NCBI GenBank assembly: GCA_017483945.1
Contig: JAFUUE010000038.1
Coordinates: 1-38,027, forward strand
DNA: 38,027 nucleotides
Source: Paludibacteraceae bacterium
GTDB taxonomy: Bacteria > Bacteroidota > Bacteroidia > Bacteroidales > Paludibacteraceae
Reading direction: 5' to 3'
Shown piece by piece: positions 1-8,222 of the stretch. The position numbers and the translations under genes are program-made. Numbering within the stretch: the stretch's first letter is position 1; the number at the start of each line of letters is the position of its first letter. Under the pieces are notes generated by a model. It made no database searches. It was not told the origin of the DNA and saw only the letters and a list, made by a program, of their open reading frames with translations.

Positions 1-3000
1 GGAAGTATAGGTTGCGCTGAATAATGTTGAGCCTCCGCCAGGGCAGGCATCCAAATCCTCGTTATGGTTGTTTTCAATAGCGGCATACGTGCCGACGGCG
101 GGGGCGGTGAGGGTGAAGGTGATGTCATCGTCCGCTACGTCACCGGCGACGGAGAAGGAGGCGACAATCTGCGCCTTGCTGTCCACGGTGCTGGTTGTGG
201 CAGTACCAAGGGTCACGCCCTCGGAAGCAGTCAGTTCCAAGCCAGCCGCATCGCCGGTCCACGAGGTGGTGTTCACTACCGCCTTGACGCTGTAACCGCC
301 GCCACCCTTATAGAGTTTGTCATCCACCTTGGTTATGGTCCAAACGACAGGTGCCGCCGCTGCCCACTTGGCGTGGTAGGTCTTGGCGCCCGTGGAGCCG
401 GAGGGGAGGATGGACACGGGGTTCGCGTACGCGCCCGTACTTTCATTATAGGTCTCGTACCAGCCCTGGAAGATATGCCCGCTCCAAGTCGGTGTCGGCA
501 GGTCATAGTCGGGGTCCGCGATGGTATAGGTGGTCTTTCCCGTGACCGCCCCGGCATCGCCGTCATGGAGGGTGTAGGTGATGGTGTAGGAGGTGGGGGT
601 CCAGGTAGCAGTGATGGTCTTTTCGTCCGCCGTGGCGTTGATGCGTATCGGGTTGCTTGCGGCAGTATAGCCGGAGGCAGCCGTCACGCCGTCCGGCAGC
701 GTCCAACCGGCAAAGGAGTAGCCGGAGGCCGGTGTGGCGGTGATGTCACCCGAAGCGGTTGCTATACCGACGCCGCTGACCGAGGAGGGGCTGACGGTGC
801 CGTGTTCCGTGCCTGCGGAGACAGCGACGGTGTGGGTGATTTCCGCGAAGGAGGCATCGACCGTCACAGCATACGCCGGCATGGCGAAGGTGGTGGTATT
901 GGCGGAAGAAGCGTCGGTGCTCACCGTCGTGCTCGGGTCGTCGGTCTTATAGACATTCCACGCGCTGAAGGTGTAGCCGCTGCCGGGCGTTGCGGTGATA
1001 TAGACGGTAGCGCCCTTGGCCGCAGAGGTAATGGCGGCCGACCCGTCTGTGATGGCGATAGTGCCGTTGGCGGGGTTGCCATTGGTGATATCGAAGTCGG
1101 ACAGCACCCAGTGGGGATACAGCGTGATAGCGGCATCGGCGGTGTACGAACCGCCGAGGTCATAGGCTTTGTCTCCGCCGTCCGTGGTAGCCCAACCGTC
1201 TTGCGTGTAGTTGGTGCGCGAGAAGGTGCTGCTGCTCAGCGTGAAGGCGACGCCATGCGTCTTGGTGTCCGCAGAGACAGAGCCGGTGCCATAGTCGCCC
1301 GCATCGTAGGTGATGGCATACTGCGGCACCCACTGGCTGCCGGTGATGAGGTAGGCGGCGGCGTTTTGGAATAACTTGACACCATCAGCATTCAAATCGT
1401 TTAACTTTGCACTGGATACACTTATAAGCAGATATTTCGCTGTGCTCACTCCACGCTGTGCCGCCGTCAACTCATGAATAGCAGCACCGCGAGTTGATGC
1501 CCCTTTTTTCGGAGAAGTAGCTAACATATAACCTTCATATCCCGACTGGAATTCAACTACCGGCTGCATGGCTTTCTCCGCTGCTGTGTTGATAATGGTA
1601 ATGGAATCGCTGGTTATGGTTAGACCATCAAATATCGGGTGGCTCAAGATATTCGAATATACTGTATTCAATTTTGCGCCTTTTATTGTTTGCCCATTAT
1701 CAGGCGTACCCCATCCCCAACGTCCCTTAGATGCCGTTGCATTATAGGTATAGAAATAACTTTTGGTATTCAATATCGGTACGTTCGCAGAACGAAGTTG
1801 GTAAATTTCTTTTGTTGCTACATCGCTCTGTGCACTATCTCCGTTCACGGATTCGTGCAGTACCACCAATGCCGTTGTATCGCTATAACTGAATGAAGCA
1901 GCGCGTTTAGGTTTGCGTACGGTGACCACATAATCGTCTTTCAGAGCATCGTAGAGGTCATCACCAGTCGTGGAGGCTGTTGTGAGATACAGCACCTTGT
2001 ATTTCCATTCGGCATATACCGTAATGGCGGAAGGAACGTCGTCATCCACATCATAGTGTGTGCCGGAGCCGTTGGCTTCTGTGTTCCAGCCGGTAAAGGC
2101 CTTCGTGGCGGGAGCGGTGAAGTTCGGGCCGGAGCCGTTGGCGGCAAAAGTCGCATCCGTCCGCACTACATAGGCTTCATCGGTGCCGTTGTTCGCATTG
2201 TAGGTCACGCTGTAGCCGGGAGCTACATAGGTGCATTCCCGGCTTGCCACATCGGAGTCCACGAAGCCGGATTGAATGGCAATAGCCTTGACGGTCTTGG
2301 TGGCATCAATGGTGAACGGCGCGCTATAGGCCGTACTGCTGCTTGTCGGCGTGCTGCCGTCCAGGGTGTAGTAGATGGTCGCCCCTTCTGTTCCGGTGAT
2401 AGTCACCGTGTTGGTCGCCGATTCAAAACTAATCGACGGTGTATTCACTTTCCATTGCGCATAGAGCGTTCTGTCGCCGTCCGCCCAGTTGCCGGAGGCA
2501 TCGGTACAGAGGTATTCGGTGGCAACCAGACTGCCGTCGGTATTGATTACCTGCATCCCTGTGCCGCCCGAACCGCTGTACCAGCCGTTGAAGGTGTAGC
2601 CGCTCTTCTCCGGATTGGTAATGGATGAAGACAGCGAATTACTTCCGGCAACCACCGTCACGCTGGAAGTATTGCCCGTTCCGCCGTTGCCATTCAGTGT
2701 AATCGTGTTGTTGTGCGTACTGCCGCAGTTGGCTACGGTCAGAGAGACGAGGTCCTCGCTCAGATAATTGCGTTGCAAGAAAAATTGATTCGTACCTGCC
2801 AAGCCGTCCTCGGCGACCACAGTGTACGTATATGTAAAGGTACTGCCATTTCCATTACCTCTCCATTGTTTTTTGGTAACACCGTCGGTATTGACCAAAT
2901 CCAGTCCACGAGAGTTCTCTCCGGGATTATGAAGCGTAGCCGTGATGATGGTTCCCACTTGCATATCTTTGGCAAGATAGACAGTCACTCTGCTATTATC

Positions 3001-5376
3001 ATTGACACTAAAACGCAGATATGCTCCGCCTGCCATGCAGTGCAGCCTGGCTTCAGTATCGCCGCCGGTGGGGGTATATTTCATTGCACCGCCGGTGGAA
3101 GTGTTCACTACTTCATTCTCTGTATATTTATAGTCCTCCGCAGGCTCATCTGTTACCGTGAAGGAATAATCATTGGCATACCAGAGGGCATAGAGTATTA
3201 TATTCGCAGTATAAGCCGTTGCACCCAAAGAAGCGGCATCAATCGTCCCTACTGCGCCACTGGCACAATCGGATGCCGTGAACCAACCGCCAAACGTGTA
3301 ACCCGCCTTCGTCGGAATCTTCAATGCCGTTGCCGTTCCATAAGTATGCGACATCGGCGCATCTGCCTGCGCGCCGCTAAAGGTATTATTCCCCTTGTCC
3401 TTGTAGGTGATGGTGTAGGTGTTCGGTGCCCAAACAGCATAAAGGGTAGCGTCGCTACTCAGCGTATAACTTGCGCTTGCGGCGTATGCCGCTCCGCTGC
3501 CGTTCGCTACTGTGTTCCAGCCTGTGAAATGCTTACCCGTCGGAGCAGTGAAACCATTAGCGGCAACAGTCACACTTTTGCTATCCGCATCGCATGCCAC
3601 CGACTGCTTCGCCATCGTGCCCGTTCCACCGTTGGCATCATAAATAAGCGCATAGTATGGATAGAAACGCACATACCAATTCTTATCCGTATAGTCCGCA
3701 TTCATACGGAACTTGCCATAATGAGTGTATGTTGACCAAGAACCGTTTGAAAAGCTGGACATTGTAAATAAGTTGTCCGTACCACTTATAGACAAATCTC
3801 CTGTCGCATCCCATTGATCAGTAAAGTTTGGTGACGTTGCCGAACTATTGTCACGTACAAACTTCAAGTTGGTATAACTGGAAGGAATCCAGCCTTCGTA
3901 TAGATGATCCTCACCTACGACTTTTCCCAAAAATCCACACCATCCATTAGAACCTCCATTCCAATAGTAGATTGCCAGTTTAGCACCATCTTTATCCCAT
4001 TCGCAATTATCCAATAGGAAGATATGCCGCATTGCTTGCGTATTGTCTGTGCTGACATAATTGCCGCTGCCGTCTATTACGCCCACACTGACATCGTAAT
4101 TTGCCGAAGTACTATTATATTGCACCAAGTCAGAACGGTACTCTTGTGTTTTCCCTACTTGGCTAATAGAATATTCTGCGCTGCCGAACTTCAGTTTATA
4201 GCCATCCGGAATGAATCGCGCATATAGGTTATTCCAATCGCTGTTATCATAGATGCTAATTGTTCCCATAGCACCTGTTGCCTGTCCAACTTTCGGACTG
4301 CCACTGGTATTTTCGTTATGTAGCGCATCCGCAAAATACATTTCGCTTCCCCATGTTTGAATGGATGAGCGAGAGTTATTGCTTCCTAATGCATCATCGT
4401 AGAAATAGCCGTTATAGCCAACAAACCACTTGGTATCAGAAGGAATGGTATAATTGGTTATTTGCCATTCGTTGGTAGAACCTACTTGTACAAAGTCCGT
4501 CCGTGTATTGGTTGTCTTTAACGTTGCATCTTCCGAACTACCAGTGTGAAGGGAATAAGGATTAGCAGCTGGAGTCGAAATTACTATTCTAGAACAAGTT
4601 GTAAGCCCAGAAGAAGAGGATCCTCTTCCTACATATACATATGCACTTTTGTTAGCGTTTGTCAATGTAGATACAGTAACGGATGCAGCTTCTCCATCGT
4701 TTGCACTTTTGTTTTCAGCACTCACACTTCCTCCTAAAGATGAGGAAAAGGCAGTCTCCCCATCCTTTACCACATATTTAAAATCAGCCTTCCCAGAGCC
4801 ATTGTAAACAGATATTGTAATCGTCCCGTCATTAATTCCTGTTATTGGTATTCCGACATAATATCCATTTGTTTCCATATTATTGTCACACCAAGTTAAA
4901 ATGCCAGAACTTATCGAAAAGGACCTAAAAGAAGAACCTGATTTTTTAGTAAAAAAGGTATATCCATTAACTATCTGCTGGGCAGCCTCGGAGCAAATTG
5001 TTTGATCACTCCAAGAAGAAAAATTAATATCAACTAACGTTTCATCTCCCCACATCTCCCCCACTCCCATGCACAACACCACAATCAGGCAGGCGGCATA
5101 GCGGAGCACCCGCACCGGGAGGCGGTGCGGGAGGCGGCATGACAAGTGGCGCGAGAGTGGCGCGAGAGTGGCGCAGGAAGATGCGCCGGAAAGTGTATCG
5201 GGACAGATATCGGAATCTACTCCTGAAGAAGCGGGGATGCGTATAGACCGACGGCCTACCGCCAGCCTACCGTAATCTGTTGCGGAGTCAGAATGCTGCG
5301 AATAGCCCCCCCCTGACGGCAAGGAGGCATTCGCTGCCGCTTTGAACAAATTAGAAATAAAATTAATACTTCTCAT
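1..5376 (-). CDS. Giant secreted multidomain protein with InlB/Listeria-Bacteroides repeats (3' end beyond window)
   Basis: The minus strand is open from the ATG at 5376 to the window edge, 1792 codons without a stop, so the C-terminus is missing. A hydrophobic signal-like segment lies at residues 90-110 and is followed by the apparent mature chain. It is preceded by about 88 low-complexity residues, so the true start may be an internal GTG or ATG (for example codon 88 or 103). InlB-type repeats, with patterns like YDANGGTG and GWxxxxxGSG followed by LYAxW, are visible at about 572-649, 652-732, 892-975, 1053-1126, 1351-1422 and 1596-1672. Residues about 980-1050 resemble a chitobiase/hexosaminidase C-terminal domain (YYTLDGSTPT). 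Such proteins are usually surface or secreted adhesin-like proteins; a sorting domain would be expected in the missing C-terminus. The start lies 42 nt after the DUF1016 gene and directly behind a repeated leader. The specific function is unknown. Confidence 0.85.
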   Translation of the reverse strand, partial: MRSINFISNLFKAAANASLPSGGGYSQHSDSATDYGRLAVGRRSIRIPASSGVDSDICPDTLSGASSCATLAPLSRHLSCRLPHRLPVRVLRYAACLIVVLCMGVGEMWGDETLVDINFSSWSDQTICSEAAQQIVNGYTFFTKKSGSSFRSFSISSGILTWCDNNMETNGYYVGIPITGINDGTITISVYNGSGKADFKYVVKDGETAFSSSLGGSVSAENKSANDGEAASVTVSTLTNANKSAYVYVGRGSSSSGLTTCSRIVISTPAANPYSLHTGSSEDATLKTTNTRTDFVQVGSTNEWQITNYTIPSDTKWFVGYNGYFYDDALGSNNSRSSIQTWGSEMYFADALHNENTSGSPKVGQATGAMGTISIYDNSDWNNLYARFIPDGYKLKFGSAEYSISQVGKTQEYRSDLVQYNSTSANYDVSVGVIDGSGNYVSTDNTQAMRHIFLLDNCEWDKDGAKLAIYYWNGGSNGWCGFLGKVVGEDHLYEGWIPSSYTNLKFVRDNSSATSPNFTDQWDATGDLSISGTDNLFTMSSFSNGSWSTYTHYGKFRMNADYTDKNWYVRFYPYYALIYDANGGTGTMAKQSVACDADSKSVTVAANGFTAPTGKHFTGWNTVANGSGAAYAASASYTLSSDATLYAVWAPNTYTITYKDKGNNTFSGAQADAPMSHTYGTATALKIPTKAGYTFGGWFTASDCASGAVGTIDAASLGATAYTANIILYALWYANDYSFTVTDEPAEDYKYTENEVVNTSTGGAMKYTPTGGDTEARLHCMAGGAYLRFSVNDNSRVTVYLAKDMQVGTIITATLHNPGENSRGLDLVNTDGVTKKQWRGNGNGSTFTYTYTVVAEDGLAGTNQFFLQRNYLSEDLVSLTVANCGSTHNNTITLNGNGGTGNTSSVTVVAGSNSLSSSITNPEKSGYTFNGWYSGSGGTGMQVINTDGSLVATEYLCTDASGNWADGDRTLYAQWKVNTPSISFESATNTVTITGTEGATIYYTLDGSTPTSSSTAYSAPFTIDATKTVKAIAIQSGFVDSDVASRECTYVAPGYSVTYNANNGTDEAYVVRTDATFAANGSGPNFTAPATKAFTGWNTEANGSGTHYDVDDDVPSAITVYAEWKYKVLYLTTASTTGDDLYDALKDDYVVTVRKPKRAASFSYSDTTALVVLHESVNGDSAQSDVATKEIYQLRSANVPILNTKSYFYTYNATASKGRWGWGTPDNGQTIKGAKLNTVYSNILSHPIFDGLTITSDSITIINTAAEKAMQPVVEFQSGYEGYMLATSPKKGASTRGAAIHELTAAQRGVSTAKYLLISVSSAKLNDLNADGVKLFQNAAAYLITGSQWVPQYAITYDAGDYGTGSVSADTKTHGVAFTLSSSTFSRTNYTQDGWATTDGGDKAYDLGGSYTADAAITLYPHWVLSDFDITNGNPANGTIAITDGSAAITSAAKGATVYITATPGSGYTFSAWNVYKTDDPSTTVSTDASSANTTTFAMPAYAVTVDASFAEITHTVAVSAGTEHGTVSPSSVSGVGIATASGDITATPASGYSFAGWTLPDGVTAASGYTAASNPIRINATADEKTITATWTPTSYTITYTLHDGDAGAVTGKTTYTIADPDYDLPTPTWSGHIFQGWYETYNESTGAYANPVSILPSGSTGAKTYHAKWAAAAPVVWTITKVDDKLYKGGGGYSVKAVVNTTSWTGDAAGLELTASEGVTLGTATTSTVDSKAQIVASFSVAGDVADDDITFTLTAPAVGTYAAIENNHNEDLDACPGGGSTLFSATYTS
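5146..5178. repeat. Three 11-bp tandem units near the 5' end of the giant gene
   Basis: The unit GTGGCGCGAGA (plus strand) occurs at 5146-5156 and 5157-5167, with a degenerate third copy at 5168-5178. It lies in the segment that would encode residues 67-77, ahead of the signal peptide. Similar 11-bp arrays elsewhere in this window are intergenic, which hints that this segment may be untranslated. Confidence 0.7.
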
Positions 5377-5377
5377 C

Positions 5378-5399
5378 GTATTATGTGTTTTTATGTTAT
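5378..5399 (-). repeat. 22-nt partial copy of the repeated leader element
   Basis: These 22 bases are identical to 6592-6613, which overlaps the distal end of the 83-bp repeat. On the minus strand they end one base before the ATG of the giant gene, so this copy forms its immediate 5' leader. Confidence 0.75.
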
Positions 5400-5418
5400 T
5401 CGTTTATTGGGTGTTGGG

Positions 5419-6462
5419 TTATTCGTGTTGTATTTGATAGATTTCTTTTTGCCGCTCTATCTCTCGGCGCAACTCATCCTCCGTAGGAAGATACAATTTG
5501 TATTTAGTGGCATATAACTGCTCATTCCCTTTTAGAATAGAATATCTCGCTATGTCTTCATCGGTATCTGCACAGAGCACTATACCTATCGTTGGATTAT
5601 CCTCTTTCCTTTTTTTCAACTCATCATACATCCGAACATACATGTCCATCTGTCCGACGTCTTGGTGCGTTACCTTAGTCGTCTTAAGATCAATCAGCAC
5701 AAAGCATTTCAAGATATAATTATAGAACACCAAATCTATATAATAATCCTCCTTTTCTGTACGAATATGTTGTTGTCTTGCCACAAACGCATACCCTTTT
5801 CCCAACTCCATCAAGAACTTTTGCAGATTGGTGATTATAGATTTCTCTAATGTGCTTTCCGTAAAATCCGTATTCTGCGATAACCCCAAAAACTCAGCGA
5901 TGACCGGACTCTTGATAAATTCATCTTTTTCTTGTAATGGCTTTGTTATCTCATGCATTTCTTCCTCTACGCGCTGCGGTTTGGGACTTTGTAATATCCG
6001 ATAGTAATATTGTGAAGATATATTACGTTGTAGTGTTTTAACACTCCATGTTTCTTTCGCCGACTCGTTTTCATACCATTTGCGGGCTGTTTCATCATCA
6101 ACTTGCAGCAATACTCTGTAATGCGACCAATCCAACACAAAAGATTTTGGAGACGCCGTGTCCAAAATGTCGGGGAAGTACTGATAGAAACGGATGTACT
6201 TATACAAACTACTAAAATCAAATCCTTTCCCATATGTGGCAGTTAAACTTTTTGATAGATTTTGTACCAAACTTTTACCATACAATTCTTCGCGGGTTTG
6301 ATCTCCTATCAGTTCTTCTGTTATGCGCTTCCCTAAAAACCAGTTCCTCTGAACCAGTACGTAATCTACAGCACGATAAGCCGTCTTTCTTGCAGACTCG
6401 ATAATCTTACTTGCGTCTGCAAGCAAGTTCGTGGATTTAATATATATCAATTCTTCTGTCAT
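5419..6462 (-). CDS. YhcG-like DUF1016 protein with PDDEXK nuclease domain
   Basis: The 347-residue product matches the full-length YhcG/DUF1016 architecture. An N-terminal DUF1016 region spans roughly residues 20-150 (NWFLGKRI, SLYKYIRFYQYFPDI). A PDDEXK-type nuclease domain follows at about 200-330. The likely active site is Asp243 in YYIDLVFYN with Asp258-x-Lys260 in VLIDLKT, plus the family's GQMDMY motif at 270-275. Glu207 in a preceding helix would be a further ligand. Members are predicted DNA nucleases that often occur near restriction systems and mobile DNA; their biological role is not settled. No restriction or methylase gene is present here. The 83-bp repeat ends 63 nt upstream of the start, and the region is A/T-rich compared with the core genes. 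Confidence 0.85.
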   Translation of the reverse strand: MTEELIYIKSTNLLADASKIIESARKTAYRAVDYVLVQRNWFLGKRITEELIGDQTREELYGKSLVQNLSKSLTATYGKGFDFSSLYKYIRFYQYFPDILDTASPKSFVLDWSHYRVLLQVDDETARKWYENESAKETWSVKTLQRNISSQYYYRILQSPKPQRVEEEMHEITKPLQEKDEFIKSPVIAEFLGLSQNTDFTESTLEKSIITNLQKFLMELGKGYAFVARQQHIRTEKEDYYIDLVFYNYILKCFVLIDLKTTKVTHQDVGQMDMYVRMYDELKKRKEDNPTIGIVLCADTDEDIARYSILKGNEQLYATKYKLYLPTEDELRREIERQKEIYQIQHE

Positions 6463-6525
6463 TTGCTACTGCTTTTCATTCGCTAAGGTTTTTCCCTAAC
6501 TCTCTAATTCCTTCATTCCTTCACC

Positions 6526-6608
6526 TTCTCATCCCCAAACCTGTCCTCGCAACTCTGTTGGTTGATTAGATTAAATGTAACGTTTTCCAGTGTATTATGT
6601 GTTTTTAT
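6526..6608 (-). repeat. 83-bp direct repeat, copy A (upstream of full DUF1016 gene)
   Basis: This segment matches 7194-7276 with 5 mismatches in 83 positions by eye, in the same orientation. It lies between the stop of the truncated DUF1016 gene and the start of the full one. On the minus strand it holds a short open stretch without an ATG (from CTG) reading LENVTFNLINQQSCEDRFG, which may be a remnant or a coincidence. Confidence 0.85.
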
Positions 6609-6662
6609 GTTATCCGTATTTTAAAATTCCTTTTAATCTCTCCTCATCCGGGAGTAACTCTT

Positions 6663-7103
6663 TTAGTCACTCCATGTCATATCATACTCCGCAAAAGGAT
6701 GATTTTTCTTTGCGACACTTTCCATAATAACCGCTTCACTTCCAATCTCTTGCATTTCGTCAGCCACGGCTGACGTTTTTATTTCTTCCATTTCGACAGC
6801 CGTGGCTGACGAATTAAGCATTGGACTCCACGCTTCATAGAATAGCCGCATAAACTTCAAACTTGTAGCCGAGAACCCTCTCAAGCCAGGCAACTCGGCA
6901 CATAGTTGGCGACTGATAGTCTCTATAGCATTCGTGCCCCATTTTCCTTCCCGCGTGTTGTCCGATACATATTTTCCAATTCCGAAATATAGTGCTAACT
7001 GCTCTTCATTTATATGACGAGCTGCACGTAACTGGCTATTCAGTATTGCCTGTTTGATGGCTTGAACTGCATCATTATATGTCGGATCTAATTTTTCTTG
7101 CAT
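6663..7103 (-). CDS. Truncated DUF1016 protein (N-terminal domain only)
   Basis: The 146-residue product carries the DUF1016 N-terminal signature: YFGIGKYVSDNTREGKWGT at about 39-57, followed by a region ending GFSATSLKFMRLFYEAW at about 77-93. It then enters a linker with two similar peptide repeats (SATAVEMEEI and SAVADEMQEI) and stops at 146. Full-length relatives run to about 340 residues and end in a PDDEXK nuclease domain that is absent here. The sequence just downstream contains copy A of the direct repeat and no nuclease remnant that I could read. It differs strongly from the neighbouring 347-residue paralogue, so it is not a recent tandem duplicate. It could be a decayed gene or a stand-alone binding domain. 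Confidence 0.65.
   Translation of the reverse strand: MQEKLDPTYNDAVQAIKQAILNSQLRAARHINEEQLALYFGIGKYVSDNTREGKWGTNAIETISRQLCAELPGLRGFSATSLKFMRLFYEAWSPMLNSSATAVEMEEIKTSAVADEMQEIGSEAVIMESVAKKNHPFAEYDMTWSD
6758..6811. repeat. Two hairpin palindromes inside the truncated DUF1016 gene
   Basis: 6758-6775 is an 8-bp stem with a 2-base loop (CGTCAGCC / GGCTGACG) followed by five T on the plus strand. 6794-6811 is a near-identical palindrome. They encode the two repeated peptides of the linker. The first looks like an intrinsic terminator for plus-strand transcription but lies inside a minus-strand gene. Confidence 0.6.
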
Positions 7104-7193
7104 TTTTTCTTCAAAAAATTTGTTCCCGCCTCCGTCAAGTTATCGGGTCTTGTATTTTATATCAAGTGTTTGTTTTATCTAATTGTCTTTTAG
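7104..7193. other. Leader between the truncated DUF1016 gene and repeat copy B
   Basis: About 90 A/T-rich bases upstream of the ATG at 7103. I see no convincing TTTG/TAnnTTTG promoter and no Shine-Dalgarno sequence. Confidence 0.4.
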
Positions 7194-7276
7194 TTCTCAT
7201 CCCCCCACCTGTCCTCACAACTCTTTTGATTGATTAGATTAAATGTAACGTTTTCCAGTGTATTATGTGTTTTTAT
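7194..7276 (-). repeat. 83-bp direct repeat, copy B (upstream of truncated DUF1016 gene)
   Basis: This is the second long copy of the leader element, about 95 percent identical to copy A by eye. It begins 91 nt upstream of the truncated DUF1016 start. Together with copy A it brackets that gene as a unit of about 670 bp. The embedded short open stretch is conserved (LENVTFNLINQKSCEDRWG). Confidence 0.85.
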
Positions 7277-7358
7277 ATATTATTTGTTTCGTTTTAGCTT
7301 GCTCTTTTTTGACCATTGTGTACATACTAAAGCAACAACCCCTTTCGGAATTGCTGCT

Positions 7359-7383: not shown

Positions 7384-7491
7384 CTAACCTATCTCCTTTT
7401 TCAAATCTTCCAATGATTCGTAATGGATAACTTCTCCTCGCTCTGCTTCTTTGAGGGAGACCTCAAGCGCTCTTCTCAGTTCTTCACTCAT
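7384..7491 (-). CDS. 35-residue antitoxin-tail-like small protein
   Basis: The ATG overlaps the stop codon of the toxin fragment (ATGA) and is preceded by a perfect AAAGGAGG six bases upstream. The product (MSEELRRALEVS to LEDLKKEIG, 35 residues) ends in EAERGEVIHYESLEDL. This resembles the C-terminal toxin-binding tail of RelB/DinJ-like antitoxins and parallels IAAGRINHYNSLEEL in the 48-residue ORF upstream. No DNA-binding N-domain is present. It may be an antitoxin remnant or a minimal antidote. The assignment rests on short motifs only. Confidence 0.45.
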   Translation of the reverse strand: MSEELRRALEVSLKEAERGEVIHYESLEDLKKEIG

Positions 7492-7682
7492 GATTCTCCT
7501 CCTTTCTTATGAAATAAATAATCATGCGAACCGGTATCAGTCAGCAATAGAGTGAGTTGCTTGTTATTCTGCTTCCCGATTAGCAACCAATCATCCTCTA
7601 TATGACATTCCCAAAGACCGGCGTACTCTTCTGTTAAGATATGAGGCCTAAACTCATCAGGCAAATCGCTTAAACTTATTAA
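7488..7682 (-). pseudogene. YafQ-type toxin fragment, N-terminus missing
   Basis: The open frame between stops at 7683-7685 and 7488-7490 encodes 64 residues that read as the C-terminal two thirds of a YafQ/RelE mRNA-interferase toxin: PDEFRPHILTEEYAGLWECH, then IEDDWLLIGK, LTLLLTDTGSHDYLF. The final GSHxxLF carries the His expected at the YafQ active site. Roughly 30-40 N-terminal residues (KRFKKDLK-type helix) are missing and there is no ATG. The frame overlaps the end of the antitoxin-like ORF in another frame, as if a deletion had fused the antitoxin gene to the middle of the toxin gene. It is probably inactive. Confidence 0.65.
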
Positions 7683-7803
7683 TCAGCTCTTCTAAGGAGT
7701 TGTAATGATTGATACGACCTGCGGCAATATCAGCCATAGCGTAGTCCATACTACACATAGGACGCGTTTGCGTTGAAGGTTTGTTTTGTGCTACTGCTTG
7801 CAT
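7657..7803 (-). CDS. Antitoxin-like 48-residue ORF, probably deletion-shortened
   Basis: This ORF has a clear promoter, a perfect AAAGGAGG at 7809-7816 five bases ahead of the ATG, and 48 codons. The product (MQAVAQNKPSTQTRP... to ELINKFKRFA) contains DYAMADIAAGRINHYNSLEEL, similar to the acidic C-terminal tail of RelB/DinJ-type antitoxins. There is no recognisable DNA-binding ribbon-helix-helix. The last residues (KRFA) come from sequence overlapping the toxin fragment, consistent with a deletion junction near 7660-7685. It may be transcribed and translated, but its function is uncertain. Confidence 0.5.
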   Translation of the reverse strand: MQAVAQNKPSTQTRPMCSMDYAMADIAAGRINHYNSLEELINKFKRFA

Positions 7804-7833: not shown

Positions 7834-7864
7834 CAAAGGTACTACTTTTTTTGAGATATACAAA
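7834..7864 (-). promoter_or_regulatory. Bacteroidota promoter of the toxin-antitoxin remnant
   Basis: On the minus strand TTTG (7864-7861) is followed after 19 nt by TACCTTTG (7841-7834), a close match to the -33/-7 consensus. It lies about 30 nt upstream of the antitoxin-like ATG. A small inverted repeat (about 7877-7899) lies just upstream and could be an operator. Confidence 0.65.
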
Positions 7865-8222
7865 CTTTTGAACTGAAAAATGATTTTTTATATCATTTTC
7901 TTCATTTTCCTATAGGTACACAATATGTCAAAGAGCGGGTGCGTTCTATTTTTAACGAACCATAAAGGACATTTTATGCATCAGTTCTTCCGCCATTGTA
8001 ATGTACTTTGCCGGACATTGTCTGCGGTTCTTTTTCTTGTCTCTTTCACTTATCAAGGCTTAAACGGGCGCAAAGATAATCAATTTTATTGATTCCTGCA
8101 AGAGAGGATGACATTTTAATAGCGGTTTGGGGATTTATACACTATTTTCGCCAATTTTTCCACTATGTCCCCGCAATTTCCACGGCGTTTTGAGGCCGGG
8201 ACGGGAAGAAATGGACAAAGAA
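7865..8222. other. A/T-rich intergenic region without a recognised gene
   Basis: I see no protein-coding gene of credible length in these roughly 360 bases. The right arm of the 13-bp inverted repeat is at 7902-7914. A weak minus-strand promoter-like pair (TATCTTTG at 8078-8071, TTGC at 8101-8098) points leftward without an obvious target. The stretch marks the boundary between the A/T-rich accessory block and the G/C-rich core. Confidence 0.5.
7902..7914 (-). repeat. Right arm of the 13-bp inverted repeat
   Basis: This is the reverse complement of 7359-7371. It lies upstream of the antitoxin promoter. Confidence 0.4.

Follow-up and report, generated by a model that had tools for sequence, protein, structure and literature searches.

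In the orphan-module displacement arrays of the Rhs, CDI and MafB systems, the conserved part of a large exported-protein gene is the homology for exchange, and old remnants lie beside the active copy. The locus described here resembles these arrays, except that its conserved part and its remnants are a 5′ module (leader to signal peptide), and the genes between the remnants are neither toxin tips nor immunity genes but small, unrelated ones. Integron gene cassettes are similar in another way, being single small genes in one orientation with a repeated element between them and one putative promoter upstream. In contrast to integron cassettes, the repeat at our locus is the coding 5′ end of a resident gene and has no significant RNA fold; no integrase was found among the small-gene products scanned, on a contig that ends inside the giant gene. 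The slipped-strand contingency loci of Neisseria and Haemophilus are a third likeness: in them, too, short tandem repeats with a unit length not divisible by three lie close to the beginning of a surface-protein ORF. Here, however, the 11-bp unit length is constant, its sequence is species-specific with 2–4 copies, and no switching was seen with one genome per species. A keyword search of the titles and abstract beginnings of open-licence papers found no published account of such a locus.

The window, the whole stretch of 38,027 nt that was analysed, is one complete contig (C47) of a 1.99 Mb Paludibacteraceae assembly of 93 contigs that is about 89% complete. A preliminary description had reported an 83-bp element that recurs at 6526–6608 with five mismatches, together with a 22-nt exact piece of it at 5378–5399, and both parts were confirmed. 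Direct comparison of 7194–7276 with 6526–6608 gave exactly 5 mismatches in 83 positions, while the third piece matched 6592–6613 exactly over 22 nt and the first copy exactly over 17 nt. A whole-genome search with the element returned two places only, the two long copies (E 1.2e-37 and 4.9e-31). The pattern ACATAAAAACACATAATA had 3 matches in the window at up to 3 mismatches, against 0.01 expected, and 3 in the genome at up to 2 mismatches, all at this locus, against 1 for the reversed control. With a looser leader profile, 10 places in the genome were obtained at E ≤ 1, and only the three window copies reached 1e-4. No further strong copy of the element was found in this genome's assembly beyond the window locus. 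Confinement of the element to one place in the genome had been named as evidence against a cassette array; in this assembly it is so confined, a point that is outweighed by the genus-wide link to gene starts described below.

The features of the array all lie on the minus strand, in the order TAnnTTTG box, antitoxin- and toxin-like remnants, copy 1, truncated DUF1016_N gene, copy 2, full YhcG gene, third copy and giant gene. The TAnnTTTG box at 7834–7841, of the Bacteroidota-type −7 kind, is the nearest one upstream of the array and its putative operon promoter; other such boxes are at 8078, further upstream, and at 5738, within the YhcG ORF. At the array head, three-frame translation gave a small ORF of 48 aa (7657–7803), then a frame without its N-terminal half, then a second ORF of 35 aa (7384–7491), labelled by eye as antitoxin-like, toxin-like and antitoxin-like. 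A longer ORF of the same kind as the toxin-like frame occurs at another locus (L146), and in genome G042 DNA resembling 7384–7803 lies about 2 kb from a giant-type 5′ module of the same contig.

Copy 1 (7194–7278) is a decayed module, with its leader at 7260–7278, CTG for ATG, N-terminal codons, a deletion, and a signal-peptide end (GGACAG..GGGGATGA) followed by a stop. The first small gene (6610–7103; Pfam DUF1016_N, 1.1e-17) is a DUF1016_N/YhcG-type pseudogene, whose ORF of 146 aa (6663–7103) stops early and whose C-terminal remnant (LKELLPDE...) continues to a TAA; the first base of the following leader lies within this stop codon. The pseudogene is without most of the C-terminal part of a 382-aa homologue at L180, which itself lies upstream of a giant-type ORF. 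Copy 2 (6526–6610), also decayed, has its leader at 6592–6610, CTG for ATG, and the signal-peptide end GGA CAG GTT TGG GGA TGA (GQVWG, stop). Next comes the second small gene (5419–6462), which encodes a full-length protein of 347 aa with DUF1016_N and YhcG_C (PDDEXK nuclease) domains (Pfam 1.1e-35 and 2e-52). Both domains were above the curated cut-off for this gene, and only the N domain was for 6663–7103. The third copy (5378–5399, leader core 5378–5396) opens the giant gene (1–5376), whose product is a surface protein with List_Bact_rpt / InlB B-repeat domains (Flg_new 1.1e-42, six stretches; TIGR02543); 1792 aa of it are encoded before the contig ends. Between the giant's start codon and its signal-peptide segment (...VLCMGVGEMWG, 5047–5106; profile match E 0.01 plus translation) is an 11-bp tandem repeat, GCGCCACTCTC × 2.7 (5145–5174).

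The statement that each copy lies just upstream of a start codon held for the third copy, which is 1 nt before the ATG of the giant and is the sole copy directly at one. It did not hold for copies 1 and 2, which end 90 and 63 nt, respectively, before the small-gene ATG and have CTG, not ATG, at their own in-frame start position. The two DUF1016 proteins had been judged too diverged for a fresh duplication, and they were indeed distant homologues, with 30% identity over 56 aa. Copies 1 and 2 carry identical lesions (the CTG start and the same deletion) in front of different genes, and one window module was therefore probably copied from the other, the copying probably coming after the decay.

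Its sequence identifies the element as the 5′ module of giant surface-protein genes, a family specific to this genus. The module starts with an A-rich leader of 19 nt immediately ahead of the start codon, goes on with the first codons and closes with the end of the signal peptide. Partial matches to the element were found in 5 other genomes of the genus. In one of these comparisons (G138) the same stretch reads as leader, ATG and MANVYFNLNQ..., opening a giant ORF, and the LENVTFNLIN... of the window is that same coding start with CTG for ATG. The full frame, LENVTFNLINxxSCEDRxG, resembles the N-termini of giants, for example MANVYFNLNQ and MKNLLNLN, and the tail of the same stretch, read in another frame, gives a signal-peptide end (GQMWG and similar in giants) and a stop. 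Since both the coding start and the signal-peptide tail match, the 83-base element is a giant gene's front end that has lost its middle part. The window holds three modules, two of them decayed and standing before small genes, and one intact, which opens the giant. The leader is probably a translation-initiation region.

Other identities for the element were considered and rejected. A dedicated leader peptide, proposed for LENVTFNLINxxSCEDRxG in the preliminary description, was not upheld, the frame being a decayed giant N-terminus. A promoter inside the element was rejected on the absence of a TAnnTTTG box from both long copies; a scan for E. coli-type promoters gave 4 sites in total against 6.7 in shuffles, with one promoter-like site overlapping copy 1 on the other strand. 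An RNA element was also rejected: Rfam had no match in the window at the gathering threshold, and folding of both long copies with RNA parameters was not significant (z −0.05 and 0.31). We regard as very unlikely the reading in which every cassette gene has the element as its own dedicated leader or promoter, is driven by it, and perhaps also has a leader peptide in it. The same element does stand before three genes, and in G021 the leader directly opens a non-giant ORF of 227 aa (MANITLKL...). However, in the giants seen the leader lies a few nt from the start codon, too close for a promoter, which adds to the missing −7-type box, the lack of a fold and the origin of the peptide frame.

The explanation we prefer, and hold to be probable, is that the module is the 5′ end of the giant gene, and that small genes were acquired beside it and exchanged via its homology. 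Small genes (YhcG, RhuM, Bro-N, KilA-N and others) would be acquired between an upstream promoter and the giant, in the direction of the giant, whose 5′ module would supply the homology for exchange. A circle or fragment carrying a module and a small gene would enter at the resident module by ordinary homologous recombination, leaving a module copy on both sides. As each acquisition would leave or bring a module copy, the small genes would come to be separated by module copies, and they would probably share one transcript with the giant. Because the 19-nt leader core is short for RecA recombination, a longer module homology must be assumed.

The position of the leader was then determined across the genus. 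A leader profile, made from 24 training sequences of the genomes searched, was run in 178 genomes of that genus and gave 46 places at E ≤ 1e-4, of which 45 were parsed (the other is G021:C32:69453, E 1.0e-4). The leader opened a giant at 30 of the 45: 28 of these ORFs have at least 400 codons, with a minimum of 464 in G041, and the other two, of 153 and 322 codons, are open to the sequence end. Of the 15 remaining places, 13 open short ORFs and 2, both in the window, are without an ATG, and all 15 have a giant ORF downstream on the same strand (in G164 one of 1797 codons, open). Among the parsed places outside the training set, a giant is opened at 16 of 23. When 300 genomes sampled from the family were searched at E ≤ 1e-4, 1 of 33 genera had the leader, with 0 of the 32 other genera positive under this threshold and a stricter filter that drops weak matches. 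A pattern search allowing 2 mismatches matched 37 of the 178 genomes, against 16 for the reversed control, indicating that part of these matches are due to chance.

Species were compared at the locus using one genome per species. The preliminary description had proposed that strains be compared for gain or loss of units exactly between the repeats, and related species do differ by whole units next to the element. Its reading of a conserved element with exchanged genes is borne out to this extent; the element as the small genes' own leader is not, being a remnant of the giant's 5′ module. The DNA around gcvH is common to four species (HSPs of at least 80% identity and at least 200 nt), and gcvH is there in G043 also. 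Over the 2.5 kb that end at the leader of the giant, G041 and G105 have 97% identity; at that point G041 has RhuM, a scar (a remnant module copy) and YhcG, and G105 has no small gene. Genome G162 has a Bro-N-like ORF (below the cut-off), and G133 has a fragment of that ORF and, between it and the leader, a broken YhcG that is absent from G162; the two sequences match again starting some 20 nt ahead of the leader. In G043 there are two YhcG genes.

The order in G109 is YhcG end, module, Bro-N gene, module, YhcG, leader, giant. Compared with it, G110 has a first piece that is 88% identical and a last piece that is 98% identical; one module joins the two pieces, and the Bro-N gene is absent. The giant of G110 ceases to match after the first 13 nt of the gene. 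The two genomes thus differ by one unit flanked by repeats that was lost or gained, and they form a mosaic. Likewise G013 and G109 share a YhcG end and leader that are 95% identical, followed by a giant in G013, and by a scar and the Bro-N gene in G109. In G030 two contigs (L044 = C4 and L045 = C99) have exactly 119 bases in common, ending just past the leader, and then continue into different giants. A length of 119 bases is a common assembler word size, and the identity may be an assembly-graph fork, arising from two loci or two strains.

Taken over these comparisons, the unit boundaries on one side vary between a point some 20 nt ahead of the leader and one 13 nt into the gene, and on the other side they reach into the signal peptide. 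Boundaries near the leader, and the single orientation of the units, would be expected if the element were the recombination site of a site-specific cassette system (integron-like attC, shufflon or MITE). We consider such a system the least probable of the readings and very unlikely, since the boundaries are variable, the element has no significant RNA fold, and no recombinase was present among the small-gene products scanned. In addition, the leader pattern was absent from viral contigs and copy 2 was unmatched in phages and plasmids, observations on which a phage or plasmid origin of the element was also rejected.

Scars resemble the N-terminus of the resident giant in seven arrays (G129, G134, G041, G043, G145, G018 and G176, by eye), and G015 and G104 each have two giants in tandem. 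Such scars are also what tandem duplication would give, which is a caveat for the exchange reading, and local duplication does occur as well. In its full form, this alternative holds that the giant was duplicated in place, that the upstream copies lost everything past the signal peptide, and that unrelated small genes happened into the gaps, with no movement of units between species. We consider it unlikely as the whole explanation. Against it are the G110 mosaic, in which a small gene and leader 98% identical to those of G109 lie between a stretch of 88% and an unlike giant; the shared YhcG end and leader, which precede a giant in G013 and a scar plus Bro-N gene in G109; and the window scars, with identical lesions and different genes behind them. 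The scar N-termini in G018 and G013 match the giants of other species, G054 and G021, respectively.

All 12 scars with a readable signal-peptide end, some of which are copies of each other and thus not independent, have a stop at that end or within one codon of it (9 by profile, 3 by eye). Six scars (L132, L127, G109, G110, G129 and G015) are intact mini-ORFs, consisting of a leader, N-terminus, signal peptide and immediate stop. Neither the stops at the signal-peptide ends nor the intact mini-ORFs are predicted by pure decay. The intact mini-ORFs may yield signal-peptide-only products.

The small genes between modules are of diverse families. Of 10 scanned, 7 had a family (YhcG, Bro-N, RhuM, KilA-N, ORF6N, AAA ATPase, and four-helix 23S IVP-like, the last a match below its cut-off) and 3 had none. 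Upstream of the leader, 16 of the 30 giants have an open frame on the same strand that is at least 100 codons long and ends no more than 75 nt away. The best other matches of the G109 Bro-N and YhcG genes extend little beyond the ORF, indicating a pool outside these loci as the source of the small genes; among the matching loci, some likewise precede giant-type ORFs. A strict partnership of YhcG with giants was dropped as an idea. In 25 genomes that were not chosen by the leader, with 59 YhcG matches in all, YhcG clearly preceded a giant-type ORF at only 4 of 48 parsed loci (28 of 29 loci plus 20 others), some of whose stretches end close by. The sequence AGTTTAGTGTTTAGAG was tested as a conserved border on the 5′ side of the small genes and dropped too, as it is part of a heptamer filler that also occurs in other intergenic DNA of the fetched loci.

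Domain scans placed List_Bact_rpt or InlB-type repeats in 5 of 5 giants scanned, and the window giant has both these repeats and the signal peptide of such surface proteins. A set of 31 giants, picked from the fetched loci and not a census, was read further. Most have about 15 to 150 residues N-terminal to the signal peptide, and a few, for example G145, are without them. Downstream of giants at L045, L050, L052, L054, L097 and L109 there is a small ORF of about 120–180 aa that begins like a signal peptide and ends in a basic stretch, often RRRK; NCBIfam had no match for two of these.

At least two exact 11-bp units were present in the first 330 nt of 14 of the 31 giants, against 0.005 on average in dinucleotide shuffles. 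These repeats sit between the start codon and the signal peptide, in 2–4 copies of a unit whose sequence differs between species; the 31 giants are not independent, four having one common unit. Exact lag-11 runs of at least 14 numbered 13 in 10.2 kb of N-terminal DNA, 0 in the 145.8 kb of the rest of the giants and 5 in 137.8 kb upstream. In DNA outside ORFs, runs of at least 10 were in excess at 11 and 22 bp (0.30 and 0.34 per kb, against at most 0.05 at lags 10 and 12), indicating that the 11-bp repeat process is not confined to giants. The exact-repeat spectrum outside ORFs (L043–L062, L093–L132 and L232–L271) had peaks at 11/22 and also at 7/8/14/21 bp, and GTTTAGN-type heptamers fill some of the gaps in those loci.

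The 11-bp unit is not a multiple of 3, lies in the 5′ coding region and shifts the frame, and in 14 of 14 cases the next stop in the other two frames came 0 to 59 codons past the repeat, so that a frame change ends translation, as in slipped-strand loci. Within G129, the scar has about 4 exact 11-bp units and the giant 2.4. The presence of the 11-bp repeats in many giants suggests phase variation of these by slippage, which we put forward as a fair hypothesis. A broader proposal, which we offer as speculative and doubt in its entirety, is a genus-specific system in which mini-genes running from leader to signal peptide act as docking homology that shuffles YhcG, Bro-N, RhuM and KilA-N genes and giant ectodomains between species. 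In this proposal, 11-bp slippage would switch the giants, and the upstream nucleases and DNA-binding proteins would possibly promote the recombination or control the giant.

The preferred explanation, acquisition of small genes beside the giant's 5′ module, would mean that unrelated small genes can land, and be exchanged, at a surface gene by way of its conserved 5′ module. It predicts that the antigens of these bacteria would vary by 11-bp slippage, and that YhcG, RhuM, Bro-N and KilA-N would move as single genes.
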